This document shows, one piece after another, positions 15,569 to 64,000 of a DNA stretch of 64,000 bases. A program made the translations under genes and the position numbers. Source of the stretch: Karstenula rhodostoma CBS 690.94 (taxonomy: Eukaryota; Ascomycota; Dothideomycetes; Pleosporales; Didymosphaeriaceae). Every line of letters begins with the position of its first letter. Position 1 is the stretch's first letter. The notes beneath the pieces are model-generated. The model searched no databases. It worked only from the letters and a program-made list of their open reading frames with translations, and had not been told where the DNA came from. The stretch is taken from NCBI GenBank assembly GCA_010093485.1, contig MU001495.1, positions 1,197,535-1,261,534 on the forward strand, written 5' to 3'.

Positions 15569-16679
15569 CTAGTAGTTGTACTTGTAGCACAAGGGCGAGC
15601 TCAGGGTGTTCATAACATCCCTGATCTTCATGTTGGGCTTCAGCCCGTTGAGGGAGATTTGCGTGTCGAGGGTAAGAGCTTGGTTGTTGGGGCCAACGCC
15701 GTCAATGTAACCAGTGCGGGAAGAGTCGTCGTTCTGCCAGATGCGGAAGTGACGGTCGACCATGCCGTGGTGCAGCCAGAAGACTGGGTCACCGGGAGAA
15801 GCGTATACGTCGCGCATGACGCCACCGATGCCGTTGTGGCCATAGGCGTGGGCGCCCTGCTCAGCGCACTTGGCAAAGTCCTGGTAGTCCTTCAGAGCCC
15901 GGCAACCGTTGACGATGTTCGCGTTGGTGTTGGCCGTGTCGGTGGCGCTGCCGCTGCGGGCAAGGCAGTGGTACTGGTTGAACTGGGCCGTGCTGGGACC
16001 AACGTTCAAGGCAAGGTTGGCGAATTGCTGCGGTAGGTCAGTTATGCACTCGTCAAGAACTGGCAGCGTGTGCACTTACGCCATTGGTAACGCAGTTTCC
16101 GCCGAGGTTGATGGCACCGAGCCACTTGTCGGAGAAGATGGACGACTGCGAGAAGCGGCCGGCAAACTTGGTCTCGTCGAACCAGGGGAGAGAGTCGGTG
16201 AAACCGCACTCATCCCTCAGCACCTGCTCGAAAGACCACAGGAAGGCGCGGTGCCACACGATGAACTTGCGGTTGTTGTGTACGTTGTCGGTAACGGTCT
16301 GGTGGACCTGGACGAAGTCCTCGTAGCGGTTCTTGGAACCAGGGTAGTTGCCCTTGGAAGGCTTGCCAAGCAGGCACTTGACACCGTTGACAAAGTTTTG
16401 CTTGGTGGTGTCGGAGCTGTCGTGCCACTCGGTGCGGGTCCTGACGTTGCTGCAGGTGGCGGCAGCGGCGAAGGGGCTGAAGTCGGCGTCGGGCCCCGGT
16501 CCGTCGGTCTGGTTGGAGATCATCTCGGTGATGTCGGTGAGGGAGAGGGTGTGGATCTCATGCGTGTTGAAGATGTTGAGCTCGAGCTTGGGGGCTCCGG
16601 TGGGGATGGGCAGGGCGGGGATGGAGAGCACGGCGGCGGATGCGCCGGCGGCGAGGCCGAGGAGGGTGAACTTGGCCAT
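15569..16679 (-). CDS. Secreted tyrosinase (type-3 copper oxidase)
   Basis: Two exons, complement of 16080-16679 and 15569-16027 with a 52-bp intron, give 352 residues. A signal peptide spans about residues 1-15 (MAKFTLLGLAAGASA). The copper-A site is QVHQTVTDNVHNNRKFIVWHRAFL, holding three histidines and the conserved HRxFL. Copper-B is DPVFWLHHGMVDRHFRIW, with the HH and the third histidine. There is no long C-terminal shielding domain, so this is a short-type secreted tyrosinase. Such enzymes oxidise phenols or tyrosine to quinones. Short tyrosinases also occur in some fungal RiPP clusters (UstQ in ustiloxin), and a RiPP precursor lies 37 kb to the right; a link is unproven. All copper ligands appear present. 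Confidence 0.93.
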
Positions 16680-18612
16680 GGTGGTGAAGGGAGCGAATGT
16701 TGCAGGGCGGATTAAAAATTACCAACTGAATGGGTTCTTGGCTGGGTAAACGAATGGCTGCTCTGCAAGGACTTGCAAGGGCGTGGGACAACGAGTGCAA
16801 ACGGAAGCGGATGGGAACAGGCAAATCTTATATCCATCCCAATCCCCTTTGAACGCTGCGGATACGACGCTGGTCCATGCGAGTTCGCGAGACCATGCCC
16901 GTCCTGGGCCCCTGGGCGCGCGCGGGTCCAAGGCGCTAAGAGGGCGGCGCATGGATCGGGCTTGGATCAGCAGCTTTCGATACTGCCTGTGTTCGGCCGA
17001 CAGGGCCTGCACGCATTGCCTCAGCGTGCAGCCACCTGCGCCCTGGAAGCCTTGGGGGAATGCATTGGCATACGGCTTCCATCCTGTGCCTCTGGTAATT
17101 GCAGGGCATGAGGACCGCCACGGAAATAGCCAGCCTCGCCCAGCACGTGCGTCGCCGCCGGTGCCCTGAGACGAGACCTGACCTGACCTGACCTGGCCAG
17201 CGCCTCACGAGATGCAATTTCACTACACGACCGCGCAGAAGCCACCAGCAACCGGACATCCAAGACGCACACGCCGGCCCTGGCGTCCTTCCCATTGCAG
17301 CGCGCGCTGCGCCGATCCGACCATCGCCGATGGCCTCGTACTCGGAGGAAGAAGTCCTGCGTATTCTCCTTGTCATGCTGACCACGCCTGCCTCTCCCAC
17401 AAGGCGGCCAATGACAGGGCACTACGCCCGAACAAGCTTTGCGCCCGCTCCTCCCAAAAATACCACCTGCTATCGAGATCAGCTCACCGCTAGCCCGCCG
17501 ACTATCCTTGGATCGAAAGATGCAACCTCAGGCCAAACTATACGCCGTGCTGTGGGTGGCCAGTAAGGTATGCCACGTCGTATGCCACGTCCAAGGATTC
17601 AATAAATATTGCCTAATACGGACGACTGTCGGCCTCGCACTCATCTCGGCGTACATGGTAAAGGCACAAAGTGCGGGGTTCGTTCTCCTGCGTGACGTGG
17701 GAAATGCGGCATCGAGAAAGCTGCAGACGCCGTGGCAGTGGTGCCTCGTTGTTGGAGCGGTGACATTGCGCGCAGCATGGCATTTGGGAACCTCCAGCTT
17801 TGTTGTTAACCGGAAAGGGGTAGCACTGCTGGTGCTGCGTCATCTCCTGTACGGGATGCCTTCATTAGATGCAACTCGGTGCCAGAGCATCATCGCTCAG
17901 CTGCCCCAGCTTTTTCGGACCGTTATCTCGACTACGCTACCATTCCACCAGCAAGCATCATGCTATCATTATCAATCGATAGTTCCTTTTGTGGACCAAG
18001 AGGTTCTTGATTTCGTGCAGACCGGGCGGTCCTGCCGAGTAGCCGCAGCCGAGCAGAAGCTTTGCTGGCTCGTCTGCCGGGTATTAGAGGCTGGCCTGGG
18101 AGCACATCAACGACTGCGCAGAGCAGGGCTGGTGCTGTAGTACCCGAGACGTCGGTCATCAGCCGTGAGCCACAGCTACACATGCATCGCGAACGCAGGG
18201 AAAGATGCACAACATGTTCCACGTCACGAGACAACTGGCAGCCCGGGGGCGGAAACGATGGACGACTGGAGAGGAGCTGTCGAATAAGTGTTTTGTGTAG
18301 ACTGCAAGGAATACGCCGACTGACTATAGGAACGGTTGAGCACATTTGCCTAGGCTTTGGTCTCCACGACATGCAAAGCACCGTGAGATTCTGCGAGGAA
18401 GGCGCGAGGCGCGAGGCTACTACCCACCAGGTCGGGAGAAGGCGCGAACTCAATGCATTTCAGGTTGGAGGAAGGCACGAGGAACGACACACGCAGCAAC
18501 CCGAGCATATCCTACCTCCACCCTCTTCGTCGTACGTAGTCACGCGCTGCATTCCACACTTAGTCATCGCGTAGCCACGCCAACCGTATTCCAACGCCTC
18601 CTCGTCGCACTC
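16680..18612. other. Gene-free region with short tandem repeats
   Basis: No supported gene; a 233-codon plus-strand frame (17439-18140) has no domain or signal and is likely chance. A CCTGA pentamer tandem is at about 17168-17190, and TATGCCACGTC is repeated at about 17569-17591. The start of this region contains the promoter of the tyrosinase. Confidence 0.4.
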
Positions 18613-39557: not shown

Positions 39558-40697
39558 GATTCCAGATGGCGCGATACCCTAGACTCAACGCTCACAGCGA
39601 GTGCAAAAAAAAAAGAGCACCTGCGGCGAAATGGATTTCCACTGTGCTTGGACGCGGGATGGTAAGTAATATAAGCCTGCAAGGGGTTGGCTCGCTTTCC
39701 CATTTGCCCTCCGTCTCCCAGTCCGCGATTTCAATAATGGCGATTACCAACCACCTCGCCCAACTGTACAACCACTCACGTTTGCCGGCTGTCATACTGT
39801 TTTGACAGCATCCTTGACGCTGACACGACATCTCTGCGATCCCATGTTTCTCTTCTTACACCTTGGCGAAAAGTTTGCGCACGTCTATGCGGCAGTGGCG
39901 ACCACCATCTCAACGGCAGCACAGACGTTTGATCGGATAAGATCCGAACGCCCTGCCTCATAAGGTATGTCGCATTCTGGAATCGTCAGTGCTAAGCTTT
40001 GCGGTGCTGATCAAGCAGTGTTTGTGCCATAAACCGCGGCTTAGCCTTTGTTGGTGCTAGCGGGTGCTAGCGAGCCCTACTGCGAAACGCGAAGCAACGT
40101 CTTCGAAACCTACCCTGCGGCACGACACATTGGATAACCGGCAACTCCACGCGAAAACAGCACAGGCCAATGTGTCAAACAGTGCATGGCGTGATGCCCG
40201 TCATTGCTATGGCTTGGCAGGGAGACACACAGAAACACAGAGCACGAGGCTCCGCGACAAGCTGCCGCACTACAGGGGCATTAGGGCCGTCGGAACACAT
40301 GCATTGCTGGTTGTATTTCCGTGTTTGTCACGCGATCCGGGCCGCTCGTTCTTATACACCCCTACTGTGAACACCACCTGAGGCAGGGAGTGGGGTTCGC
40401 AGGCACCTACACCCACACACCACCATCTAGTGGCATCGTACAGTGGGCCCATATGGGACATTGAAGCGTGAAAGGAGCAAGTATGCGTCGTTTAGCGCCC
40501 GAGGCCTATGCAAGCTAGGCCATGACAGGCCATTCAGGTTACAATATAAGGTGTCTGGCAGTCCGCTGTGGGAGAACCATCCACTGATCATCATTCACTT
40601 CTGGGATACTGGTGATCCGTTCTTTCTAGTCTCTCTTTTATTCTTAATCCTTTTCGATTCGATTCGTCGCGCTGTGCGCTCTACCATTTCACTCAAA
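39558..40697. other. Intergenic, no gene seen
   Basis: No supported gene. An A10-11 tract is at about 39605-39615. A small duplication GGTGCTAGC (gttggtgctagcgggtgctagcg) occurs at about 40050-40071. The last 150 bp, with a TATAAG at about 40544 and a C/T-rich leader, form the probable promoter of the Egh16-like gene. Confidence 0.4.
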
Positions 40698-42205
40698 ATG
40701 CATTACCAGATCTCTATCCTGGCGCTAGCCGCTATCTTTTCTTCCGTCCAGGCCCATGGAACCATCGAGTCAGCCATTGGCGAGTCTGGGGAAAGCAAGG
40801 GATTCAAAGTCGACGACTCCCTTGCTCGTAACTGTACTGGCATTAGCCCGTGCCAGCAGGACACCACCATCATCAGAGACAGCGAGATCACGCAGAATAT
40901 TGTCAACTCTTGCGGCCGAACAGAGATCGATGGCAACATCGATGTTGGAGGCGAAACCGAGAAGGCCATTGCAGCCAACAAGGTCACGACTGTCAAGAGA
41001 GGCTCACAGCTCGCTGTTACCATCCACCAAGTCAATGCCGATGGCGCCGGCCCTTACGAGTGTGACCTCGACGTAACCAGCAATGCAGCAACCAGCTTCG
41101 TCCAGCTCCAAGTCACCAACAACGTCCCCGGCGCAAACGGCCTCTCACAAGCCGAGGCTACCGACTTCACTATCAACGTGCAAATGCCTGATGACTTCAA
41201 CTGCGTTGGTGCATCCACGGGTGATATTTGCACTGTTCGATGCCGCAACACTGCTGTCGCCGGCCCCTTTGGTGGTTGCTTTCCGGTTCAGCAAACTGAC
41301 GGAACGGGTCGCGCCGACAACCAGACTGCTGATTGTAAGTTCAAACAATGTTCCCATGTACAGCGTTGCGTGAGCGCAATGACTCATTTGTTGCCCCAGC
41401 CGTCACTACTGCCCAGACTCTTGATGGCATCAACAAGCAGATTGCCCAGAACAAGAAAGATCTCCCTGCTGCTATTGCTGCTATTGCTGCCGCTGGCGCG
41501 GTTGGCGGCAATGCTGACGCTAGCCGTGTCTCCGGTGCGTTGCTTCCTTCCGCTACGTCCTTCTCATGAGCTCTTTGCTAACTATCATATCAGCTCTTGT
41601 CCCTGCTGCGAGCCAGACTGCTGCCGCTGGTACTGGGAATGCCGCGACCGGCAACACTGGCAACGCCAACACTGGAAACGGGAACAACGGTAACGGCCGT
41701 AACAGAAACAACGGTAATGGAAACGCCGCCAATGCTGCGGATGGCAATGCTGCGAATGGCAATGCTGCGAATGGCAATGCTGCGAATGAAAACGCTGGTA
41801 ATGGCCAGGCAGCGAATGGTAATGGCCAGGCAGCGAATGGTAACGGCCAGGCAGCGAATGGTAACGGCCAGGCAGCGAATGGTAACGGCCAGGCAGCGAA
41901 TGGTAACGGCCAGGCAGCNNNNNNNNNNCCAGGCAGCGAATGGTAACGGCCAGGCAGCGAATGGTAACGGCCAGGCAGCGAATGGTAACGGCCAGGCAGC
42001 GAATGGTAACGGCCAGGCAGCGACCGGCAATGGCGGCAACAGGAATAATGGCAATGGAAACGCCGCAAACGCCGGGAATGGCAACGCTGCGAATGGTAAT
42101 GGCCAGGCAGCGACTGGCAACGGCCGTAACAGGAACAACAACAACAAGCGTGAGAGGAGCCGCAAGTTCCTTTCTCGCTTCATCAACCCCAACGCCATGG
42201 CTTAG
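40698..42205 (+). CDS. Secreted Egh16-like (GAS1/MAS3-type) protein with C-terminal Asn/Gly repeats; assembly gap inside
   Basis: Three exons (40698-41334, 41400-41534, 41594-42205). Signal peptide about 1-18 (MHYQISILALAAIFSSVQA) is followed at once by HGTIESAIGESGESKGFKVD, the typical start of Egh16/DUF3129 proteins, which include Blumeria gEgh16 and Magnaporthe GAS1/GAS2 appressorial proteins. Paired cysteines (NCTGISPCQQD, NSCGRTEIDG, YECDLDV, FNCVGAS, CTVRCRN, GGCFPV) match the family. After an Ala-rich segment comes a low-complexity tail of GNGQAAN heptads encoded by 21-bp tandem repeats. Ten Ns at 41919-41928 break it, and frames before and after differ by two bases. The protein ends KFLSRFINPNAMA. 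The likely site of action is outside the hypha or in the wall during infection structures. Confidence 0.88.
41793..42028 (+). repeat. 21-bp tandem repeat coding for GNGQAAN, interrupted by a 10-N gap
   Basis: Near-identical copies of a 21-bp unit (aacggccaggcagcgaatggt, first copies aatggcc) run head to tail on both sides of ten Ns at 41919-41928. The left flank stops after ...aacggccaggcagc and the right resumes at ccaggcagcg. A perfect unit would therefore need 12 bases there, or 12 plus multiples of 21. Confidence 0.9.
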
Positions 42206-48316: not shown

Positions 48317-49882
48317 TCACTCTTTCACGTCATCTTCGATCTTCAAGACCTCCAGCTGGACAGCGTCGGCGTCATCCTCGATTCCCACAAGACCTATGAG
48401 CGCCTCGTCATCAATGACATCCATCATCTCTTGCTTCTTCTCCGGCTGCTGTCCATGGGCGGCCTTGAGCACCACTTTGCCCTTGCCACCCAACTCGCCG
48501 TTCCATCTCTTCGCATTCTTCTTCTCTTTCTTGGCATGCTCTTCGCTCCGGAAATGATAACCCCTGGCTCGTGGGCCCTGGCCAGTCTTCTCGGGCAGTT
48601 GCGGCTCGTAGAAGGCCTCAAAAGCGGCAACGTGTGCTTCGAAGGTGCCAGCGTCAATGGAGCTGCGGATGGAAGCGAAGAAGGATTCGACGACGGAATG
48701 GTTGTGCACCTGGATGAGGAACCAGCCGAGCATTTCCTTGGCGGAGAGGAGGTGTTGGACGTAGGCGCGGTGGTGCTTGGTGCACGCGTAGCATTGGCAG
48801 TGCTTGGACAAGGGCGTCACGGCGAGGGCGTGCTCGGCGTGCCACATGTCGATGCCCAGTGTCTGTCTCTCGTTGCTGTTCCCGTTTTCGGGGGGCGGGA
48901 AGGAAAAGTCGAGGGCTATGCCGGCGTCGGTGGCGGAGGCGATGAAGGGCACGGTCAGCAGGTCCATGCCTAGGCTGACCTGGCGGAGCAGCTCGTGGGG
49001 GCTGGCGGGGACGTGCAAGGACAGGCGCGGGAGGTGGTGCAGGGCGTCGGGCAGGTCGTCGAGCAGGAAGGCGTCGTAGATGGCCACGCCGCTGATGCTG
49101 TCGACCATGTCGTCGAGCAGGTGCTCGAGGTACCACGACTGCAGGTCGCGCTCAATGGGCAGGATGGGCGCGAAGATGGCGAAGCGCGGCTCGGCCGTGG
49201 CCATGGCGCTGCGCGTGGCTACGAGGTCGCGCAGCCAGGCCTCGGTGCGGTCGCTCATCTTGTCCTTGCGCTTGATGCCGATGGCTGGCTGGCCAAAGGG
49301 TATGTCTGCCATGCCCACGACCACGTCCGGCTGCAGCTTCCGGGCGGCCGCGGCGTAGTACTCGGAGCTCACCGACTTGTAGCCCACCGACGTCAACAGG
49401 CTGATGGCCGTGTTTGTGTGCGCGGCGGGCGTGGGTATCGGCGGGGTGCGGCGGGCGCCCAGCACGAGCGGCGTGTCCTGCGGGAGGGCGGCGAACTTGC
49501 GAAGCGGTTCGGGCACATTGTACTCGAAGATGGGCGGCGTCTTCTCCGGATGCTTCTCTACGACTGCGCCGTGTCAGCGCCATGTCAGTGCCGCCATGTC
49601 GGCGCACGCAATGCGCGTCGGGGGCAGCTGCAACCCACAGTCCTCCAGCCCAACGTACACGCCGTTGCTTCCCGCGTATTTGCGGAAGTTGTCCGGCGAC
49701 ATGTGCGGGACCACGCCGCGCGACGTGTTGGCCAGGAATGCCGGCGTCAGTATGGGCTTCCTGCTGGGCAGTGTCAAGCGACCCAGCCGCGGCGCGAGCG
49801 CGCCTGTCGTCTTCAAAAGCCCAAAGTCGACCATCTCCGGTGGGACCTGCGAAACGTCGGGCATTGGCGCCCCCAAGGACAT
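48317..49882 (-). CDS. QTRT2: Queuine tRNA-ribosyltransferase accessory subunit 2
   Basis: Two exons, complement of 49639-49882 and 48317-49563, give 496 residues. The 75-bp intron joins GVYVGLED to FVEKHPEKTPPIFEYN exactly at the place where fungal relatives continue, so a stop seen in the unspliced frame is not real. Conserved features are LPSRKPILTPAFLANTSRGVVPH, VGMADIPFG, and the zinc site CQCYACTKHHRAYVQHLLSAKEMLGWFLIQVHN (CxCxxC...H). The partner QTRT1 supplies the catalytic nucleophile; QTRT2 is the structural half of the heterodimer that exchanges guanine-34 for queuine in GUN-anticodon tRNAs. The acidic/Lys-rich C-terminal extension (KKEKKNAKRWNGELGGKG) is typical. An alternative start at Met7 (49864) is possible. 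Confidence 0.92.
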
Positions 49883-50677
49883 GCTGTCCACTGCACCGAG
49901 GCCAACTGAACGCGGCTCGAACTGCGCGTTGTGCTTTCGCGATTTTGCAACGGTCCCGGGACGAAGCGTGTGTGGGATGCGACGTGGGGCGCTTCGCGAT
50001 GCTGACCGAACATCAATCTTCAAAGTCACGTGATGGTGCGTCCCTCGCATACTGCACACCGCATACAAATGCAGAGGAGGGAACGGTGGTGTTTAGGAAA
50101 AGATTCGACTTCGATTGGTCCATGCTCTGGGGTGCAAGTCCCACGAGTTCGTACTGAGGGATCAGGTCTGTGGTGTTTTTGTGTGCCATTGCAACGTGAT
50201 TTCTCTCTGGTGGCCGTCACTCTTTTGGTCGTTTGATCTGGGATTGCCGCGGTCCTCCTGCAGCGTGGAAATCGAAGGCCGTATACAAGACTACGGCGCT
50301 GCCAAATGGGCGAGCAAAGGAAGGTTACGAATTCGCGCACTCGTTTCGCCAGGGCTGAAAAAGGGGGAAGCGGTCGGGTGCGCGTGTTCACGTGATTGGG
50401 CTTAAAAGACGGATACATGTAATAGTGCTATCTGGTCCCCGCGATCGTGTAGCACCACCTTCCACAACGCCACCCGTCCAACGCGGGCGTACATTGTCGA
50501 GCCTCGTCGCCTCTTTTTGCCTATAGAAGATAGTTTCCGCTCACGCAGGCAGCATGTTCTGCTTCATTTGGCCATTCTACAACCATTGCGTCACTCGGCA
50601 TTTTTATCCACGTTTGAGCGAAGCGACGGTTTTGGACAACACTTGAAAACTACAAACTCTACACGCCATGCCTCTAC
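49883..50677. other. Intergenic, no gene seen
   Basis: This is the promoter side of QTRT2 and the 3' side of the UstYa gene. ORFs here are short and featureless. It marks the change from housekeeping genes to the peptide locus. Confidence 0.4.
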
Positions 50678-51860
50678 TTATAAGTTGAAGTCCTTATCCG
50701 GATTCGCGCCATTGACGTGGTTCGGATTCACCTTATCCGGCCTAAAGTATTTATACCACATGTCCGCCTCTGGCAACTGCTTCACATCCTTGGGCTTCTC
50801 TAGCACCATACAGTCAGCATGTATAGAAAATCCCCTCGCGTTGGGAGCACCTACTCATTTTGACGTATTTCACCGGGTCCACCTGGTGTTCCCTCCGCCA
50901 CTGCGTCAAGGCATCGAAATTCGCAACACACTGCTTGTTGATGCTCATGTCGGGGAAGGGAAATGCTTCTTCGTTAACCCAGTGCATTGTGATAAGGTTG
51001 ACTATACTCGCGGGTACAAAGTCAGCTGAGTCACAAAAGTGGGTTTATGTACGAAGTGTCCATGTCCAAGACATAACGACTTTGTACCGGGGAGTATCGT
51101 ACGGTTGCCGCTGCATTGGATGGTCTGCATCAACATGTCGATGCAGTGATCCATATGGATCTCAAACATGACTTTAGGGTCTTGAGCGTGCGGGAATTGC
51201 ATTCTTGCAGTAGGGTAGTATTCTGGGTAGACGAGTTTGCGCAGCATGTTTAAGCAGTGCAGTTGGTGGTAGATGTCGAACGTAGAGGCATATGCGTCAT
51301 CGCCGAGACCGTAGATCTCATCCTGTACTGATAAGTGCGTGCAAAATCTTCGGACAGCGCAGTAGACGTACTTCAAGCTTAGTAGCTGTCGTAGGGTCTT
51401 TTCCCAACCCGCGGATCTGATCTGCTGTGATGGCAAAGACGCGTGTGATCTCCCACTCATTCCATATCGCATCTTTCTCTGCGTTTGGGGGACCACGCGC
51501 CACCGAGGGATGATGGTTGGGATACAGTGTCCCATTCACTGTCTTCACCTCTAGCGGGAGATGAATCGCATCGAGGAGAGGAGCTGTTAAAATCAGGAGC
51601 CGAAGTAGGGCACATTACTGGAGAGGCCTACAGTATGAATGAAGCTGCCGTAGTATCGGGTTGGGTCCCCGATTAATGACATGCGCAACCCACGACGAGG
51701 TATATAGTGATAACGTTGCTATAAACCACACAGCATTACACACAGTGAGGAGCTTGATTGCTCTTGGGGAGATCCCGCGGTTATCAGCGCTTCGCTTGTG
51801 TTTTTCCTCGTCTAGAAACGTTGTGCGTTCGTCCACCGAGTCGTCGCTATAGGGCAACAT
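50678..51860 (-). CDS. UstYa-family (DUF3328) oxidative cyclase of a predicted RiPP pathway
   Basis: Five exons, complement of 51632-51860, 51372-51583, 51103-51322, 50855-51001 and 50678-50799, join in phase to 309 residues. Short introns of 48-101 bp are typical of these genes. One N-terminal transmembrane helix (about 35-55, AIKLLTVCNAVWFIATLSLY) is followed by SYSPLLDAIHLPLE (residue 75 on), the conserved stalk segment created by the first splice. Both family signatures are complete: HQLHCLNMLRK at 166-176 and HMDHC at 203-207, then the CSGN turn. The C-terminal PFPDMSINKQCVANFDALTQW is also standard. In ustiloxin, asperipin, phomopsin and victorin pathways such proteins oxidatively cyclise peptide cores. 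The gene sits divergently from the repeat precursor at 53.0 kb, and all key residues are present. Confidence 0.95.
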
Positions 51861-53022
51861 GTGTTCGTGAGTGAAAAATATACACTAGTCTGAGCAGGTC
51901 CACTGCAGAGAAAGCAAAGGAAAGAGCGGATCGTTGTTACGAACTATGAACACACCTTTAACGATCAGTGTATTGCATATTCCCTGTAGCTTGATACTTG
52001 AATTCGTAGCGATTCCACGGAGAGGGGACTCGTTGGCTATCTTCATGATCGAGGGGTAGTACCAATGCCCGGTAGAGTCCGTGCGCCTCTGTGAACGTGA
52101 CCGGTTGAGCGGGTAGGTGCGGGCCTGAGAAGACCATGTTCCTATCGCACGAGTGATATCTACGATCTTTCCGTGGTCATATCGCGGCCAGGTAAATGTA
52201 GATTGTATAGATACAGTAAGGAATCCTTTGAGGTGGCAATCGACCATTCAACTGCAATTCCGGACTAAGCGTTGGCAAGACCCACTGGCGTAGGATCTAG
52301 GGAACTCGTATACGCTCGGCATTCACCCCACCTTCCTAACTAGGCAGGCAGGCAATTATGCTGCGTGATGTCAATCGTCGTACTGGTGAAGACTGACATC
52401 TGGAATCAGTTGACTGAACAGGTTTAGAACATTATACTGTCACACAGAGGGTACAGCTCCAGGACATGTCGAAAATTGTCTAACACTTGTGCGGCAAAGC
52501 TAAAGGGCTTGGCACGGTTCATCTACCATTGATGGACCTGCCTTTGTTTGTCCGCTTGTCGAAAGTCTTTCGGAATGATTGGATGCTCCCCACGAACGTC
52601 AGCATTACGGCCGCATGTGGTCACTAATGTATCGCTTTGCACTCGAGAGCTTGTTTTGCATCAAGTCCGTAAGTCTCTCGCATAGATAGTGATGACACAA
52701 CTTGGCGCAGCAGCAATCTGATCACTACTACTACCTTTACCGAAAATCCATTGGCCAGTCGGGTTTTGCCCATTGCATACCACCAAAGCCCCCTTACGAC
52801 ACCCACCACCACCTTCCGAATTCAGGTCTGTTCACCCCTCATATCTCGCACGATTACAAGCGATATCTCGAGTAATGGTTCCGCAACCTCTACAAAGAGC
52901 TTGGCAGCTTTATAGTAGGTACCCTCGTAGTATAAAGCAGGCATCTGATATTACACAATGTTAGACACAGCTTCGTCTTACCCTCTGACAAGCCTTCCCT
53001 CCATACAAACTTCAGCTTCACC
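51861..53022. promoter_or_regulatory. Shared divergent promoter region of the UstYa and precursor genes
   Basis: A 1.16-kb region separates the two divergent start codons. TATAAA at 52931-52936 is about 90 bp before the precursor ATG. On the other side an A/T-rich TATATTT (minus strand, about 51878-51885) precedes the UstYa ATG. Minus-strand ORFs at 51885-52247 and 52624-52812 have no recognisable features. I see no clear operator or palindrome. Confidence 0.5.
52931..52936 (+). promoter_or_regulatory. Candidate TATA box of precursor gene
   Basis: The sequence tataaa lies in the context cgtagtataaagcagg, 87 bases before the precursor start codon, a usual distance for a fungal core promoter. 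Confidence 0.5.
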
Positions 53023-53414
53023 ATGAAGGTCTCTATTCTATCTCTCCTGGCTTCTTTGGCTGCGGCCGCTCCGCTACCGGTAGGTCCAAGCTGCGTAGAC
53101 AACTGCGCGCCTACTTATTTAACTGATTACTGTATTAGAAAGATGACGCTGCGGTAGAATCGGCCACCTACGCACCTCTTGTATACACCGGCGGCTTGAA
53201 GAGGGATGCTGAAGCAGACCCGAAGGAGGCGGCCACATATGCACCTCTTGTATACACCGGCGGCTTGAAGAGGGATGCTGAAGCAGACCTGAAGGCGGCG
53301 GCCACATATGCACCCCTTGTATACGTTGGCGGCTTGAAGCGCGATGCGGAGGCCGATCCTGAAGCAGCAGCTACCTACGCACCTCTTGTATACACCGGCG
53401 GCTTGAAGAACTAG
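53023..53414 (+). CDS. Secreted repeat precursor peptide, predicted dikaritin-type RiPP precursor
   Basis: Two exons (53023-53079 and 53139-53414; 59-bp intron with a GTAGGT donor and an AACTGAT branch region) give 110 residues. The signal peptide MKVSILSLLASLAAAAPLP occupies exon 1. Exon 2 is almost nothing but four repeats: residues 20-41, 42-64, 65-87 and 88-110. Each is an acidic spacer (DAEADP-like) followed by ATYAPLVYTGGLK. Units 1-3 end in Lys-Arg, a Kex2 cleavage site, and the last ends Lys-Asn at the stop. Core variation is a single Thr-to-Val in unit 3. This layout is that of UstA-type precursors, where Kex2 releases several copies and UstYa-type enzymes crosslink a Tyr-containing core. 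Here YAPLVY is the natural candidate. A UstYa gene is the nearest neighbour. It could otherwise be a repeat effector or pheromone-like peptide. Confidence 0.88.
53139..53411 (+). repeat. Four tandem 66-69-bp units encoding the peptide core
   Basis: Units at 53139-53204, 53205-53273, 53274-53342 and 53343-53411. The spacer halves vary in sequence (KEAA, KAAA, EAAA, VESA) while the core-coding half is conserved at protein level, with mixed synonymous changes (ctt gta tac against gcc acc tac / gct acc tac). Selection on the core peptide is therefore likely, rather than mere recent duplication. Confidence 0.9.
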
Positions 53415-53508: not shown

Positions 53509-53960
53509 GTGTAGCACAAAAACAAGATCCTATCTTAAAAAACTAGACGGCATTTAGGCCACCGTTTTCGGACGCCTGTAACGCCATTTTCTAACGCTAA
53601 TTTGCTATAAAACCTCCCTAAACGCGCCAGCCTTCGCTTAGGCATATATACCCTTATTAGATATAAGGGTATTCTTAATAAATAAAGTTATAGTAAGTTA
53701 CTATAAGTAATTATATAAATAGATCTTTATAATTAAGATAATTAATTATATCTATAAAGCTTAGCTATATATAAGGTCTATATATAGTACTAAAATATAT
53801 TATATACTATATAGAATAGTATAGAATACTACTAAATAATAGTATACTAGTATTATAATTATAATAGAACTAGACTAGAAGAAAGGAAAGAATTATATAT
53901 AAAATATTAGTAATAAAGATAAAATTAATAGATACTTATATATATATTATATATAATTAC

Positions 53961-54025
53961 TATAAGGGTATATAAATTAATAAAATAAGGGGGATAAAAA
54001 GATATATTATACTTTACTAATATAA
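53961..54025 (+). repeat. Degraded copy of short dispersed repeat
   Basis: The phrase taagggggataaaaagatatattatactttactaatata matches the core of the better-preserved copies at 60.8 and 63.5 kb, with G/C positions changed to A/T. Confidence 0.6.
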
Positions 54026-54784
54026 AATATATTACTAATTTATATAAACTAAATTAGTATATTTATAATAAACCTTTATTATCTATAAAGATTTAAAAGA
54101 AAGTATATAGTAACTATAAAATCTAGTCTATTATTCTTTATCTAATTCTAGTAGTAATTATTATACTCTCCCTAGATAATATAGAAGTTAAACTACTAAT
54201 AATTATAAATAGAGTAAATATTTATTTAAATAGTTTTAAGCTCCTAATAGAATACTAATATATAGTTTAATTCTTTAAGTAAAAGTATAGATTTCTATAG
54301 ATAGTCTAGGTTTATAAAATCTAAAGGTTATTAAATAAAAGAATTTTACTAATATATTTAGTCTTAAATAGTTATAAAGTTCTCTATAAATAAGTTTTTA
54401 TTACTAAATTTATTCTTACTACTTTTATTACTATAATTAAGTATAGGATTATTAGAAAATATAAAGTCTAATACTTTACCTAATACTTATAAATTTAGGG
54501 ATATAGGAGTAGACTAGATAGATATTTATACTATTATAAATTAAATAGATTTTATATCTAAATTCTTTATATATAATAGTAAAAAAGTATATAGAGTTAA
54601 TTATATTATATTTAGTCTAGAAAAAAATATTAGAAGTAGAATCTAATAGGCTTTATATAATAAATAATAGCTATTTTAAAATAACCTTTATAGGGTTAGT
54701 CTTATTAGTATAAAGAGCTATAAAAGACTTAATAAAAATAATAGAATATAAAATATAAAATATAATTAAGTTATAATATTAGTA

Positions 54785-55140
54785 AGTTTAATTTTTTTTT
54801 TTTTTTTTTTTTAATATAAAGCTACTATTATAACTACCTAGTAATAAAGAAATATCTAGAGATTCTATATAAATCTATTAAATAACTCTAAAATATAATA
54901 CTATTTATAATAAAAGAGAAAGAAGAAAGGATACCTATAATACTAGACTTAATTAACTAAATATTAATTTATATAAGTATTATATAATATTATAATATAT
55001 AATACTATACTATAATACTATATAATACTAGTAGGATACTATACTTCTTATTTACTAATACCTAATATATAATTATAAAGAAGTTATAAGATATTAAAGA
55101 TATTATATATTAATAATATTATAATTAATAAAACTTATTT
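54785..55140 (-). repeat. Left arm of an inverted duplication, begins with T21
   Basis: The arm starts with a run of 21 T (54792-54812) and continues aatataaagctactattataactacctag. It reads as the reverse complement of 56615-56990, including the ...tactagtaggatactatacttctta... segment. A poly(A) tail at a repeat end is the mark of a SINE or LINE-type retroelement. Confidence 0.65.
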
Positions 55141-55170
55141 ACTAATAATAAGTAATTTATAATATATTAT

Positions 55171-55247
55171 ATATAATTACTATAAGGATAGGTAAATTAA
55201 TAATATAAGGGAGATAGAAAGGTATATTATACTTTACTAATATATAA
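55171..55247 (+). repeat. Degraded copy of short dispersed repeat
   Basis: The sequence ctataaggataggtaaattaataatataagggagatagaaaggtatattatactttactaatata follows the consensus of the copies at 60.8 and 63.5 kb, with many C-to-T/G-to-A changes. Confidence 0.6.
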
Positions 55248-55666
55248 ATAAATAGTAACTAAAAAAATAGTTAAGGCTTATTTAGTATCTATTTTATAAT
55301 ATTATATATAAATACTAGCTTTTATAGAAAGAGATTTATACTATATTCTACTCTATTAAAATAGCTAATAGAAATAAGTAATTAATTTTTAGTAATAAAT
55401 ATAATATAGTATATACTAGTAGTAAGTATATTAATAATCTAGATATATTTAAATATATATATTATAAAATTTAATATTAGTCTAGATTCTAATCTAGGCC
55501 TATAAAACTATATAGTATATTTATAATAAAAGAGGTAGCCTAGATTCTAATTTAGGCCTATAGGACTATATAGTATACTTATAATAGGAGAGAGCTTTTT
55601 ATTCTTCTTTAATATTTATTTTATATATTTTTATACTTTTTTAATTATTAGTATAATACTAACTAA

Positions 55667-55855
55667 TAGTTTTCGCGTAGGCAGGTTAATACTTAGTTAA
55701 TTAAGCCTAGTACTATAGGTACCCTTCTTTCTCTCTTATTATAAATAGTACTATCCTTTAGAGCTATTTAATAGAACTATATAGTACCTCTAGATATTTC
55801 CTTATTACTAGGTAGTTATAATAGTAACTTTATATTAAAAAAAAAAAAAAAAAAA
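55667..55855 (+). repeat. Poly(A)-tailed repeat copy (SINE/LINE-like)
   Basis: The copy runs from aggcaggttaatacttag through taggtacccttctttctc and gagctatttaatag to ggtagttataatagtaactttatatt, followed by 19 A (55837-55855). It matches copies at 56797-56976 (same strand) and at 54792 and 61231 (opposite strand). Confidence 0.65.
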
Positions 55856-56614
55856 CTAATAGTTATTTAATACTAACTCTCTTTATCTATATTTACTAAT
55901 ATTCTTAATTTTTATTTATAGCTTATAGCTTATAGCTTACTCTATTACTATTACTATTACTATTACTATTAATACTATCTACTTATTATTACTATTAATA
56001 TTATCTATCTATTATTACTATTAATATTACTTACTACTTTTTTATATATTTTATAAAGCTACTATTACTTACTTTATATTTATTAACTATATAGGTTACT
56101 CTAACTTAATTATAATTATCTTTACTATAAAGTCTAGCCCCTTTTAACTTTTAAAAATTATAATAATTAGCTCTTATTACTTAGTAGTAAAGTCCCTATT
56201 TATAATTAATTACTATAGAGGTAATTCTACTATAGATTAGTAATATTATATTAGTAATACTATATATATATATATATATATAAAAAACTTACTAATAAAC
56301 TCTATAATTATATAGTTTATAACTATAACTTATAGTATTTATATACTAAGTTAATTATACTAATAGAGGTTAACTTACTAGAGAATATACTTAATCTTAT
56401 AGAGGTCTATATTATTTAGACTTATACTATATATAGAATTAGTACTACTATTAGTATATATAAAGTTATATTTATTACTAATAATTAGTTACTTATTATT
56501 AACTATTTTAATAGAGATATAGTATAGGTTTTTTTCTATAAAAGCTAGCCTTTATATATAGTACTATAAGTTATTTACTACTAGTAAATAACCTCTCTTT
56601 TATATTCTTTTTTA

Positions 56615-56976
56615 AATTATAATATTATTAATATATAATATCCTTAATATTTTATAATATTTTTAATATTTCGTAACTTCTCTATAATTATATATTAGGT
56701 ATTAGTAAATAAGAAGTATATTACCCTACTAGTATTATATAGTATTATAGTATTATAGTATAGTATTATATATTATAATATTATATAATATTTATATAGG
56801 TTAATACTTAATTAATTAAGTCTAGTACTATAGGTACTCTTTCTTTTTTCTCTTTTATTATAAATAGTATTATCCCTTAGAGCTATTTAATAGATCTATA
56901 TAGTACTTCTAGATATTTCCTTATTACTAGGTAGTTATAATAGTAGCTTTATATTAAAAAAAAAAAAAAAAAAAAA
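56615..56976 (+). repeat. Right arm of inverted duplication with A21 tail
   Basis: The arm ends in 21 A (56956-56976) after ggtagttataatagtagctttatatt. Its preceding sequence, including the TCTAGTACTATAGGTACT core, is the inverted counterpart of 54785-55140 and shares its last about 170 bp with the copy at 55667. Confidence 0.65.
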
Positions 56977-57402
56977 CTAGATAAAAGGCCTTTAAAGAGG
57001 ACCTTAAATACTATAAAATCTATATTAAATAGTATAAAAATAATTACTATAAATATAAGAAAGAGTAAATAAGTATCTAGTAAATTATTATATTTATCTA
57101 ATTAATAGTATTACTATATCTATAATATATCTATTACCCCTATAATTAGCTACTTTACTAGTAGATATCTAGCCTTAAGCTAATAATTAGAGTTAATAAG
57201 TAATTTAAATAAGAATATATATATAATAGATACCTAATTTCTTTTAAACTAATAAGAAATATTTTATAATAGGATATATAGCTAGCTAAGTATAATTAAG
57301 TAACTACTAAAGTAGAGATATATTATATTACTAAAGTAATATAATTAAATATAATTACTAAAGACTTTCTACTATCTATAAATAAGGTTATACTTATATA
57401 GT

Positions 57403-57515
57403 TAGCCACTTTTTTAGTCCCCCTTTATTCGTGTATTGGTAAAGTATAACGTACCTTTTTATCCCCCCCTATTTTATTAAGTTACCCTACCTTATAGTGA
57501 ATCTCTATAATATAT
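57403..57515 (-). repeat. Short dispersed repeat, reverse orientation
   Basis: The sequence gccacttttttagtccccctttattcgtgtattggtaaagtataacg...ggtaaagtataac..accctaccttatagtgaatctc is the reverse complement of the copies at 60,766 and 63,494. It keeps several C and G residues unlike its surroundings. Confidence 0.8.
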
Positions 57516-58049
57516 ATAGTCTATAAACGTTTAGGATAATAGAAAAAAATAGCTAGTATAAGCTAAAAAGAAATAATAAAATAATTCTAAGAATATATAA
57601 TAATAAACTATCCTAATATAAAAGAAAAGTATAAAGCTACTTTTATAACTAAGGAAAAGACTTTTCTTACTAATAGTAGTAAAACTACTTAGAGTAATAA
57701 TAGGGATATTTCTTTTACTAAAATTATATTATCTAGAAGTTAGGGATATCCCTATAATTAATATTAAATTAAAAAACCTAATAAAAAGTAGCTATTAGAT
57801 TATAAGTAGGCTTTAAGGCTATTAAAGTATAAGCCTTTAACTACTATAAATAAATACCTAGTATATAGATAATAATATATAGTTAAAAAATACTATTACT
57901 TATATAAAAAGTAAGCCCCTATATAATAGAGACTAAATCTAAGTATTAATAAGTTAATAGTATATAAATAAAAGTATAATACTATATTCTATAAACTAAT
58001 TTAAAAATAAAGTAAACCTTATTTCTAAATACTAAAAATTAAACTATTA

Positions 58050-58890
58050 TATATACTAATACCTATCTAAATATTAGAGGCTAGTAATAAATAACTAGAG
58101 GGATAGAAAATTACTATAATATTTATAAACTTCTAAGTAACCTTTTAATCTAACCCTTATATATACCTATTATAAACCTTATTAATATTTAATTTATATA
58201 CTATATATTATATTTTTAATAATATTAATTAATTTATTTTACTCTAGCTACTAATACTAGGAGACTTTATATAGGTAAATAATATATAGGTTTAAATATA
58301 AGAATATAGAAGTATTTACCTTAGACTATAAAATTACTAAGAAAATAGTATAATTAGGCTTAATAATATAGCTTACTACCCTAACTTACTCTATAACCTA
58401 GTATCCTTTTAATTACTTAGATATTAAAAACTATAGTAGAATACTAAATTAGAATCTATAGTACTAAAATAGGCTAATAATACTATTATAGTAGAATTAT
58501 AAAAGTTATATAATTAAAAAGTATTAGAATATAAACTTACTAATAATATTTATACTACTATATAAAGTATAATATATACTATATATAAAGTAATAATATA
58601 TATAAAGTATAAAATAAAAACTATAAATATAACTATATAGTATAAATAACTAGACTATCTAGGACTAAATATATTTAAGTACTTAGTATAATAAGCTAAG
58701 GGGGTATATATTAAAAGTATCCCTATAGTAAAATATAATACTTATAAATAAACTAAATTAAAATAATAAATTAGATATATACCTTAATTAAATAATTAAG
58801 GACCTAATAAGTATATTATAATTAATTTTTATAACTTTAAACCTAATAGCTCTACTAAAGAGAAAAGCTAAATATTAATTATTAATTAAT
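58050..58890 (+). repeat. Large direct repeat, copy 1
   Basis: About 840 bp, beginning near the phrase aaatattagaggctagtaataa and running past ggactaaatatatttaagtacttag to the aatattaattattaattaat end. It is repeated in the same orientation at 62905-64000, with scattered transitions and one insertion in copy 2. Confidence 0.85.
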
Positions 58891-60765
58891 ATTTTAGCTA
58901 TATATAGGACTTTTATTTTAGAGATAACTATTTAGTAAAGATTATTATTAAGATACTTAATAGCTTTATACTATTTATAAAAGTATAGTTTAGTATAATA
59001 GTTAAAATTATTAAATTAGATAATAAAATCTTTATAGTAAAAGTAGATATTAAATATAAGTATATAAGCTAAGGTATTAAAATTAAGCCTTTAGTACTAG
59101 ATATATAAATATAAAATAGAGAAGCTAAGTACTTAGAAAGTATAATAAAAAAAAGTCTATATAATATAACTTAATATAAACCTTTTATAAGAAATAAAGC
59201 CTAAAATTACTAAAGCTATAGTATACCTATATAATTAAATACTAAATTATAAAAATTACTAGTACTTACTATATAAGATATTCTTTATAATAGTTACCCT
59301 TATTAATAAAATAGTAACTTAGTTTTAAAACTAAATCTAATATACCTTAAAGTATATAGAAGTAAAGCCTTTACTATAACTAATAATATATAGTATAGAA
59401 AAAGTAAGCTATAGAGACTTAAGCTAAAGGTATAAATTAAATACCTTATAAAATACTAATTAATAAATATCTAGTATATATAGAGTCTATTATTATTAAA
59501 TTAATTAATATTTATAATATTATATTTAATAAAAATATAGTATTTAATAGAATATAAGAAGAGCTTATAGATAACTTTATATATAGTATTCTAAAAGAGA
59601 TTATATTATAGATTAGGACTATAGAGAAACTACCTATTCTAATAACTAAACTAAAAATAACTTTATTCTATAAAAATAAATTAGTTATAATAAGTTATAA
59701 TAACTTATAATAATAAAAAGTATTAGAAGAGTTATTAGAAAGAAAGTATAATAGTATTTACCTATTACTATTATTAAGAATATAAATAATACTTAGTAAT
59801 ATTAGGATTTATAGAGCTCTATTAGGGTTTATAGAGCTCTAATTAGCTATAATAAGGGGTACCTTAACCTAAGTACTAAACTAATTTAGGATAAGTATAG
59901 TATATAACTAGTATTTTTAATAATCTTTTTTTATATAATAATCTAATTAATTCACTTCCTAAATAAAGGGATATTTAAGCTTTTTTTCTCTACTATAGTT
60001 ATAAGTCTAGTACTTAGAATATAGAATAATTCTTTCTATATACTTTACTACTTAAATATATACTCTTAGGTTCTCCTATTATACTAAAAGCCTTCTTTAT
60101 TTAATAAAACTATAAGTAATCTAACTATTCTAGTTACTTAGACTTAGCTTATTAATTAAATAAGCTAACCTTATTAATTTATAAGCTTATATTTTTAAGT
60201 AAACTCTAAAGGTATTTAGTCTAAAATTAATCTAGATAATCTAATAGTTCCCTTAATTAAGAATAATTACCTTATTTAACTAGTTATTTTAGAGGAACTA
60301 TACTAACTAGTTATTTTAGATAACCTTAAAGATTATAAGTAGGAGCTTAAATTATATAAAAAGGATAAAGAAAGCTATATTTTAAAAATTATAGAATATT
60401 ATACTATAGTCTCTAACTAATAAATATACTATTCTAAGCTATAAAATCTCTAGAACTAGGTTTATACTACTATCTCTTAAAATCTCCTTACTCTAGTAAT
60501 AATAAATATAATTAAAGATAATAAATCTAGCTTATAATATCTACTATATATACTAAAGAATAATCTAGTACCTACTAAAGAAATAACTAAAAACCTTATT
60601 TAAGTATAATATTATACTTATTTTAATAAAGTAAAGAGTAGATAGTAGAACCTAAAAACTTAGTTTAAAGAATAGTAGCTTCTCTACTATAAAGTAATTA
60701 TATATTTAATTAAAGAAACTAAAAAAGTACTTATAATTTATAATTTCTTTAAAGTCTTAAGTATA

Positions 60766-60935
60766 TATATTGTAGAGATTCACTATAAGGTAGGGTAACT
60801 TAATAAAGTAGGGGGGATAAAAAGGCGCGTTATACTTTACCAATATACAAACAAAGGGGGACCAAAAAAGCGGCTAAGGCGCGCCCAGCGTCTGTGCACA
60901 GGCTAACCAGAAAGGAGTCTTAAGTAAGAAGATTA
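60766..60935 (+). repeat. Short dispersed repeat, best-preserved copy
   Basis: The sequence starts tgtagagattcactataaggtagggtaac and includes aaaaaggcgcgttatactttacc and ggcgcgcccagcgtctgtgcacagg. Its C+G content is far above its surroundings, so this copy has largely escaped mutation, as expected of an element shorter than the RIP length threshold. Confidence 0.8.
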
Positions 60936-61230
60936 CCTCTAAGTAGTTCTACTTAATTAAGTAGTAAATCCTACTTAATAAGATATTTAAAAGGCCTATA
61001 ATAATACTTTCTAAAATTAGAAAGGTATTTCTAGTATTAATTTAGAAATAATTACTCTACCCTAATTATAAAAGAACTAGTATCTATATAATATTTAATA
61101 GTTAGACTACTAAACCTAGTAGGGAATTATTTAATAATATATAAAATAATAATTATTTTAGCTACCCCTATAAAAATATCTAATATAAATAGTAACTAAT
61201 TAAATACTAATATTTATAGATAGCTATTTC

Positions 61231-61310
61231 TTTTTTTTTTTTAATATAAAGTTACTATTATAACTATCTAGTAATAAAGAAATATCTAGAGGTACTATAT
61301 AGTTATTAGA
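61231..61310 (-). repeat. Truncated poly(A)-tailed repeat
   Basis: A run of 12 T (61231-61242) is followed by aatataaagttactattataactatctagtaataaagaaatatctagaggtactatatag. This is the first 70 bp of the element seen at 54792, after which similarity stops. Confidence 0.6.
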
Positions 61311-62904
61311 TTATATGTATATATTATTACCTATAGTATAGTATACTTACTATTATAGTAAGTTATAGTAACTACTAGTAGTAGTAGATAGTAAGTATAA
61401 AAGAAAAGGCTAGGATATTTTATACTATTAGGACTAGTATAAGGTACTAAAGTACTATTTAAAGGTATATCTTAGCTAGACTTAGAATAATAATTAACTA
61501 TAATAATTTATATAATTATATAATATATAACTAACCTATCTATATCTATAGTTTATAGTAATCTATTATTATTTATAGTAGATTTAATAATTAAAAGTTT
61601 TACTATTTTATTACTAACTATATATACTAAATAATATAGTACTACCTATTAAATTTATAAAAACCTTTCTTACTACCTCTATATAGTATATAGAATAGCT
61701 AATAGTACTAGAAATATAAGTAAAAGCTAACTAAGTATAGTATATATTTAACTTAATTAATAGTAAAGTACTAAAGTTATAACTATAAGTACTATAGCTA
61801 CTAGACCTATATTAATTTATATATAATAATAACCTAATACTAAGTAGCCTATATATCCTTATAAATATATAAAAGTTATAGTAGAACTTATAAGTTAAAT
61901 ACTATAAACTATAATCTAATTAGTATAAAATAGAACTAGTAAAATATTATATAGAGGTATAGGGAGTAGAGAAGTTTATATTATACCTATAGGGTTCTAT
62001 TATAGCTAATCTATTTAGTACCTATTATCTTTTTAAAAAACTATATAAAGAATAGATCCTCTTTATTATAAAAAAGGTAGGAGTTAATAATAAAAAAGTA
62101 AAACTATAAGTATAATATAAATACCTATATATTATCTAAAGTACTAAGAGGTTAACTAAATAAGACCTCTAGCTAGCTAAATATAATTATATAGTATTTA
62201 CTACTAAAAGGTAAGGCTATATAAAGACTATAGATAATATAACTATTTTTAATAATTTTATAAGAAGTATTATAGTATTAGATAAAGTATATACTACTAC
62301 TTTTAAATAGGCTTTCTAAAATAAATAAAAAATAATATACTAAAATATAATAAAAAGGTTTAGACTCTATATAGAGTACTATTATTTAGTTAAAGTTATA
62401 ATTAGAGCTATATTTATTACTAGAAAAGAACTAAATACTAGTATTAAAGGGGATACCTTTTATACTAGTAATAGTATACCTATATAAATATAAGGTACTT
62501 AAAAATAGAAATAAAGTATAATAATATCCTTATAGGGATTATATAACCCTAATCTACTTATACTATATAAATAAGTATCCTTTATATTATATAAATAAAG
62601 CTCTATACTATATAGGTAAAATACCTCTATACTATATAAGTAGGGAGGTTATAAAAGGAATAAAATACCTTACTAGTAAATAAAAAATTAAGGTATAAAT
62701 AAAGAAAAGTATCTTATATATTTTATAGAATATATACTAAAGGATTACTACTATACCTTTCTAGAAAAAGCTCTAGTATAGTAAAAACTATAATTAGAAT
62801 AGAATAGTTTTATTAAGTATAATATCTAAAATAATCCCTTAATATAAAAATAGATATATATATCTAAATAAGTATAATTTAGAATATTATAAATTAAATA
62901 GTTA

Positions 62905-64000
62905 TATATTCTTATACTAACCTAAATATTAAAGGCTAGTAATAAGTAACTAGAAGGATAGAAAATTACTATAATCCCTATAAGCTTTTAAGTAACCTCT
63001 TAATCTAACTCTTATATATATCTACTATAAATTTTATTAATTCTTAACTTAGGTATTATATATTATATCTTTAATAATATTAATTAATTTATTTTACTCT
63101 AGCTATTAATACTAGGAGACTTTATATAGATAGGTAATATATAAGTCTAGATATAAAAATATAAAAGTATTTACCTTAAATTATAAAGTTACTAGAGAAA
63201 TAGTATAATTAGACTTAATAATATAGTTTACTACCCTAACCTACTCTATAACCTAGTATTCTTTTAACTACTTAGATATTAAGGACTATAGTAGAATACT
63301 AAATTAGAATCTATAGTACTAAAATAGGCTAATAATACTATTATAATAGAATTATAAAAGCTATATAGTTAATAGGTACTAGAGTATAGACTTATTAATA
63401 GTATTTATACTATTATATAAAGTATAATATATACTATATATAAGGTAATAATATATATAAAGTATAAAGTAAAAACTATAAGTATAGCTATATTATAGAG
63501 ATTTACTATAAGGTAGGGTAACTTAATAAAGTAGGGGGGATAAAAAGGCGTGTTATACTTTACTAATATACGAATAAAGGGGGACTAAAAAAGTGGCTAA
63601 GGTATACCCAGCGTCTATATATAGGCTAACTAGAAAGGACGTAGTACCAAGCTAGCTAAAACGGGACTAGCGTGATACTAACCCTAAATAGACTTAGCGT
63701 GTGCCCGCTAATATATAAGAATTCTAATAATAGAGGTATAGCTATATAGTATAAATAACTAGGCTACCTAAAACTAAATATACTTAAGTACCTAGTATAA
63801 TAAACTAAGGGGGTATATATTAAAAATATCCCTATAGTAAAATATAATACCTATAGATAAGTTAAATTAAAATAATAGATTAGATATATACCTTAACTAA
63901 ATAATTAAGGATCTAGTAAATATATTATAATTAACTTTTATAACTTTAAACCTAATAGCTCTACTAAAGAGAAAAGCTAAATATTAATTACTAATTAATA
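62905..64000 (+). repeat. Large direct repeat, copy 2, cut by window end
   Basis: This matches copy 1 at 58050-58890 base for base in long stretches (taggtattatatattatatctttaataatattaattaattt; aagtacctagtataataaactaagggggtata). Its similarity is interrupted by the 242-bp insertion at 63494-63735. The right end lies outside the window. Confidence 0.85.
63494..63735 (+). mobile_element. 242-bp insertion with 12-bp target-site duplication
   Basis: Copy 2 of the direct repeat is split here. The 12 bases gtatagctatat stand directly before (63482-63493) and after (63736-63747) the insert, while copy 1 has the single, mutated form at the corresponding place. The insert begins tatagagatttactataaggtagggtaac like the other dispersed copies and ends in a segment with more G/C (cgggactagcgtgatac, cttagcgtgtgcccgc). 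No ORF and no clear terminal inverted repeat is visible. I infer a short non-autonomous element. Confidence 0.7.

Follow-up and report, generated by a model that had tools for sequence, protein, structure and literature searches.

A UstYa oxidase gene and a four-copy Kex2-repeat precursor gene as a probable minimal dikaritin-like locus in Karstenula rhodostoma

In a 64,000-nucleotide stretch of the genome of Karstenula rhodostoma CBS 690.94 (the window; part of contig C4 in an assembly of 44.3 Mb and 29 contigs), a gene for an oxidase of the UstYa/DUF3328 family and a gene for a putatively secreted precursor with four Kex2-separated copies of a short core are divergent neighbours whose start codons are 1162 bp apart. 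This observation, made previously in a sequence-only reading of the same DNA as a complete UstYa gene 1.16 kb from a four-copy precursor gene, is confirmed with exact coordinates, and the interpretation that accompanied it is partly supported. The pair is probably a minimal two-gene locus for a dikaritin-like ribosomally synthesized and post-translationally modified peptide (RiPP), in which the UstYa enzyme modifies the product of the adjoining gene. The precursor would enter the secretory pathway, Kex2 would cleave it after Lys-Arg, and other peptidases would trim the spacers and the C-terminal basic residues, while UstYa, as a membrane-anchored oxidase, would act oxidatively on the precursor, most likely to form a cross-link through one or both Tyr of TYAPLVYTGGL; cross-linking, secretion and processing are all predicted from the genes. 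A compact two-gene locus with near-invariant short cores would permit a simple test of one UstYa on one peptide.

The precursor gene and the UstYa gene

Both gene models were made by hand from the sequence (Table 1). The precursor gene has one intron of 59 bp, and its product has an N-terminus (MKVSILSLLASLAAAAPLP) that resembles a signal peptide as judged by eye and no match in Pfam. The repeated unit is ATYAPLVY(T/V)GGL, with unit starts at 53163, 53232, 53301 and 53370 (spacing of 69, 69 and 69 bp), and with four 12-residue copies in the same frame, varying at a single position, chance can be excluded as the origin of the repeat. The sequence-only reading was right to count four Kex2-separated copies, but the Lys that it assigned to the repeat belongs to the Kex2 site; likewise, what lies between the copies is not just Lys-Arg, as it described, but Lys-Arg plus a spacer of nine further residues (DAEADPKEA, DAEADLKAA and DAEADPEAA), and the fourth copy ends in LKN without Lys-Arg. 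Over the four copies, 5 of the 13 codons of ATYAPLVYTGGLK are variable, four of them synonymously and one by a change from Thr to Val; compared with a neutral expectation of 0.295 (computed with transitions weighted 2:1), this synonymous share has a P value of 0.029, for a small number of codons. Repeated cores, Kex2 sites and, by eye, a signal peptide are what a dikaritin precursor has, and each core copy carries two Tyr, a residue suited to dikaritin cross-linking. To our knowledge the core differs from those of the known dikaritins (that of asperipin-2a is FYYTGY), as the earlier reading maintained, and no paper containing the string YAPLVY was found in the literature searched.

The UstYa gene is uninterrupted from start to stop in its hand-spliced model, in which all four introns (48, 49, 101 and 55 bp) have GT..AG boundaries. 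Its product matches PF11807 with 170.5 bits and has the two HxxHC motifs, HQLHC and HMDHC, of the DUF3328/UstYa enzymes that define the dikaritin class. Both motifs have invariant His and Cys residues in 17 aligned UstYa sequences; among 52 sequences, H163, H166, C167, H203 and C204 (numbering of the ortholog P0001) are invariant, and H200 is conserved in at least 90%. In the AlphaFold model of P0001 (predicted local distance difference test score 81.3), the motifs are in two helices (160-175 and 193-214), and an N-terminal helix of 29 residues would be long enough for a membrane anchor. A sequence search with P0001 found no solved relative (its single match was at E 0.18), and none of the 49 matches listed by Foldseek for the model against the PDB had E <= 0.001. 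The K. rhodostoma protein aligns over its full extent with orthologs of Paraphaeosphaeria and Kalmusia. Its nearest relatives are in Paraphaeosphaeria sporulosa (88% identity), Kalmusia sp. (81%) and Paraconiothyrium brasiliense (90% over 77% of the query), all of the Didymosphaeriaceae in the Pleosporales, and UstYa is thus well conserved, at 81-90% identity across three related genera.

Table 1. Features of the UstYa/precursor locus and its flanks, in window coordinates
Feature	Position	Strand	Remarks
UstYa/DUF3328 gene	50678..51860	minus	309 residues, start to stop, spliced by hand; stop codon at 50678
UstYa exons	51860-51632, 51583-51372, 51322-51103, 51001-50855, 50799-50678	minus	hand splice model
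UstYa exon 3, both HxxHC motifs	51103..51322	minus	HQLHC at residues 166-170, HMDHC at 203-207
Intergenic region	51861..53022		1162 bp, divergent; presumably both promoters
TATAAA	52931..52936	plus	92 bp upstream of the precursor start codon
Precursor gene	53023..53414	plus	exons 53023-53079 and 53139-53414; 110 residues; hand model; stop codon at 53414
Core copy 1, ATYAPLVYTGGL + KR	53163..53204	plus	hand model
Core copy 2, ATYAPLVYTGGL + KR	53232..53273	plus	hand model
Core copy 3, ATYAPLVYVGGL + KR	53301..53342	plus	hand model
Core copy 4, ATYAPLVYTGGL, then KN + stop	53370..53414	plus	hand model
Left neighbour, queuine tRNA-ribosyltransferase family gene (housekeeping)	48317..50092	minus	PF01702, two reading frames
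AT-rich block resembling repeat-induced point mutation (RIP)	53640..64000		15.5-23.9% GC per kb from 54001 on

Kex2-repeat precursors elsewhere in the genome and in Kalmusia

The pairing of UstYa genes with Kex2-repeat precursors, on which the sequence-only reading relied, looks real beyond chance because of a pattern test, a scan of reading frames and the layout of a second locus on contig C14. A DNA pattern for KR[DE]A[DE]A occurs at 35 sites in the genome (26 merged loci), compared to 11 for the reversed control; the pattern also matches Lys-Ser, which accounts for 6 of the 26 merged loci, and the test was repeated on the 20 Lys-Arg loci. The 61 UstYa matches in the genome merge into 42 loci, which with 2-kb flanks cover 0.42% of it. 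Three of the 20 Lys-Arg loci have a UstYa match no more than 2 kb away (P 0.00008), and after exclusion of the C4 locus, from which the pattern was taken, the count is 2 of 19 (P 0.0028; at 5 kb, P 0.013); distances of 1, 2, 3 and 5 kb were tried, with zero hits at 1 kb. The scan took 30 of the 61 UstYa matches (102,876 bases, overlaps included) and found Kex2-repeat frames at four of these loci, representing three distinct precursors on C18 (QWYDITYVDKR), C12 (DSDDVWLWKKR) and C14 (PLGFKINKR), versus none in a control, window bases 1-50600, that was half as long as the scanned loci. The C4, C14, C12 and C18 loci are alike in having a minus-strand UstYa match to the left of a plus-strand precursor (for C12 and C18, according to the matches).

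The C18 precursor (L002/L015, C18:126.9-127.4 kb) is situated between two UstYa matches (besides the minus-strand match to its left, C18 has another UstYa, on the plus strand), and the C12 precursor (L013, approximately 772.1-772.6 kb) is near one UstYa match. Kex2-repeat proteins with no UstYa match nearby include L059 (C17:311441-311799), with many copies of AVRGSNKR, as well as L043 (C5:1187739) and L057 (C16:1222410), in which most repeats end in WGKR or WGKEKR.

The C14 locus (L016/L051, C14:662.1-664.3 kb) is a second divergent pair in the same genome, unlinked to C4, with a minus-strand UstYa gene (PF11807, 139.6 bits), a gap of 1029 bp, and a plus-strand gene for a precursor of 71 residues that contains two PLGFKINKR cores. 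Like the C4 precursor gene, it is preceded by TATAAA, at -79. A promoter motif common to the C4 and C14 intergenic regions was considered and rejected: they share 11 9-mers versus 9.1 expected, two 10-mers versus 2.3 expected, and no 11-mers or 12-mers.

A search of other proteomes, as the sequence-only reading had proposed, located a related core in Kalmusia. The first precursor search returned nothing at E <= 1 and is unreliable, since the relative found subsequently fell within its length range. With a lengthened query, five proteins among 7992 candidates scored had E <= 10, of which four had E of at least 2.3 and one was a clear relative of the precursor, P0119 (N0V90_008126 of Kalmusia sp. 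IMI 367209; E 7.1e-13). P0119 is 50% identical to the C4 precursor over 102 aligned columns (72.8 bits pairwise) and combines both core types, TYAPLWYVGGLKR and PLGFKINK, in one protein: its cores are, in order, SYVRTEGVPLGFKINKR, two of STYAPLWYVGGLKR, and SYVRADRVPLGFKINK, it shares its N-terminus (MKFSALALLSVAT) with the C14 precursor, and its middle cores match C4. When P0119 was searched back on the K. rhodostoma genome, the five matches were to C4 (E 8.5e-13 and 2.5e-10) and, weakly, to C14 (E 0.034 to 0.44). The content of P0119 and this search imply that Kalmusia has the two core types together in one precursor, and K. rhodostoma has them apart. It is conceivable, though only as a tentative proposal, that C4 and C14 make up a single peptide system in two unlinked halves; duplication of the two loci as one unit is unsupported, the nearest paralog of the C4 UstYa among the 30 loci compared being L023 on C5. 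If they are such halves, core modules would move between precursors and enzyme genes would be recruited independently in a combinatorial fungal RiPP system, and enzymes would not need to adjoin all of their substrates. Split and chimeric core types in related fungi offer a view of the gain and loss of cores in precursors, and the more interesting lead is this separation and combination of core types across loci and species.

Alternative explanations and flanking DNA

Several points weigh against modification of the C4 precursor by its neighbouring UstYa. The locus is predicted from its gene sequences, and UstYa proteins also act in non-RiPP pathways according to the relevant portions of one review (PMC12048977), so that the C4 enzyme might serve a substrate encoded elsewhere, whether another precursor or a non-ribosomal product, with the adjoining gene encoding a separate small secreted peptide. 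Such an arrangement would suit Kalmusia, in which the precursor with TYAPLWY cores and the UstYa ortholog are on separate contigs (2134233 and 2023348 bp, respectively), so that linkage is not conserved in that fungus, barring a second precursor that escaped annotation. When 25 UstYa relatives were scored against five UstYa loci of the genome, the C5 paralog L023 gave the higher score for 15 and the C4 gene for 10, which implies that the wider UstYa clade is untied to the C4 precursor, and a repeat precursor was undetected at L023 within the fetched stretch. The C4 and C14 UstYa proteins are 32% identical and are not each other's nearest paralogs, the order for the C4 protein among 30 loci compared being L023, then C18, then C14. 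Proteins of Paraphaeosphaeria and Paraconiothyrium were returned by neither precursor search, which is weak evidence since the first search also missed P0119. Finally, Pfam searches with 12 raw reading frames of the window and the two spliced proteins revealed neither a peptidase nor a transporter nor a tyrosinase gene next to the pair (DNA past the window was read in part). A substrate encoded elsewhere is nevertheless very unlikely, given that divergent adjacency is found at both C4 and C14, the precursors of which are linked through P0119, and that the flanking tRNA-ribosyltransferase gene and AT-rich DNA present no other visible partner for the C4 enzyme.

A further difficulty is that DAEAD, which follows each of the three Lys-Arg sites and went unmentioned in the sequence-only reading, is the STE13 signature of alpha-pheromones in the portions consulted of a pheromone study (PMC6339444). 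The precursor might accordingly be processed by Kex2 and a Ste13-like dipeptidase into an alpha-pheromone or another linear, secreted signal peptide, with UstYa nearby by coincidence; the exact Pleosporales pattern PYG(L/M)P(I/V)G matches nothing in the genome, and the true pheromone gene is presumed, not proven. STE13-type dipeptides are uninterrupted only ahead of copy 4 (DA EA DP EA AA), the series being broken by KE and DL ahead of copies 2 and 3. The pheromone explanation is weakened to the point of being unlikely: dothideomycete pheromones are described in the same study as having either PYG(L/M)P(I/V)G, in the Pleosporales, or a two-Cys type (PMC6339444), and the core TYAPL(V/W)Y(T/V)GGL fits neither group; DUF3328 genes are among the 15 nearest genes for just 3 of 216 putative fungal pheromones in the main text of a genome survey (PMC7329392); KR[DE]A[DE]A sites are found at the C14 and C18 UstYa loci too; and closer pheromone candidates are LPGQPIG-KR-EAEA repeats at C14:1512727 and C15:1553327. 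These LPGQPIG repeats (L052/L053, C14:1512727-1512865; L055, C15:1553327) are probably alpha-pheromone genes, and are in differing frames, as though interrupted by introns; the C15 stretch also carries NCRFPGMPC.

The RIP-like AT-rich DNA adjoining the locus, in which TpA/ApT is 1.55 versus 0.64 in window bases 10001-50000 and CpG occurs just 20 times in approximately 10 kb, could indicate a relic or silent locus, the product of which is no longer made. It is hardly credible that this is so when the reading frames and all splice sites of both genes are intact, the changes between repeats are mostly synonymous, and UstYa is conserved in related genera. Modification of the adjoining precursor by UstYa is the preferred explanation.

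On the opposite flank, the housekeeping gene matches PF01702 with 146.6 bits in frame 48317-49573 and with 21 bits, under the cut-off of 26.3, in 49574-50092. A tyrosinase gene at 15569-16718 (minus strand, PF00264 in two frames), approximately 34 kb from UstYa, was set aside as a cluster member on account of its distance and the intervening septin, Utp12-type WD40 and tRNA-ribosyltransferase genes. The window also contains a gene for an Egh16-like protein (40431-41693; PF11327, 187.4 bits), after which the sequence becomes repetitive and includes a short N run.

Comparison with known systems

The C4 pair adds one example to a large known kind and is no new class. Kex2-processed repeat proteins (KEPs) with DUF3328 neighbours (Umemura 2020, PMC7329392) have the same architecture, and the main text of that survey reports 1758 of 7878 KEPs (22%) with DUF3328 among the 15 nearest genes, so the sequence-only reading overstated the case in presenting the locus as an unrecognised one. 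DUF3328 gene counts peak at the position adjoining the KEP gene, Tyr is present in 65.6% of repeats where the KEP has a DUF3328 neighbour and in 38.2% where it has none, and Paraphaeosphaeria is among the genera surveyed (PMC7329392); the C4 core did not appear in the main-text sections consulted and may be listed in the supplementary tables. By title, there was no fungal peptide paper among those listed for GFKIN and no fungal paper for YTGG with pheromone, and the literature listed on Paraphaeosphaeria RiPPs, and since 2021 on DUF3328/Kex2 precursors, supplementary files aside, contained nothing that points to the C4 locus.

The Kalmusia precursor P0119 differs from the C4 precursor by having two PLGFKINK cores as well, and by its separation from the UstYa ortholog. 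Ascomycete alpha-pheromone precursors have Kex2 repeats and an STE13-type spacer in common with the C4 precursor, but differ in their cores and in the rarity of a UstYa neighbour. The ustiloxin and phomopsin clusters of the dikaritins, like the C4 locus, have a Kex2-processed multicore precursor and DUF3328 enzymes. To these, a five-gene definition of 2015 adds tyrosinase, methyltransferase, several DUF3328 proteins, and transporters or peptidases, according to portions of a review (PMC12048977) in which tyrosinase and methyltransferase are no longer required for dikaritins; the additional genes were unrecognised beside the C4 pair in the frames put to Pfam. UstYa/KEP pairs are very common, yet the dikaritins reported up to the end of 2022 numbered five (PMC10512285, in part). 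The asperipin-2a locus of Aspergillus flavus resembles the C4 locus in that a repeat precursor is accompanied by one UstYa-type gene, as described in sections of three sources (PMC7329392, PMC12048977, PMC10512285); asperipin-2a is made with four genes (PMC10512285), whereas two are recognised at C4.

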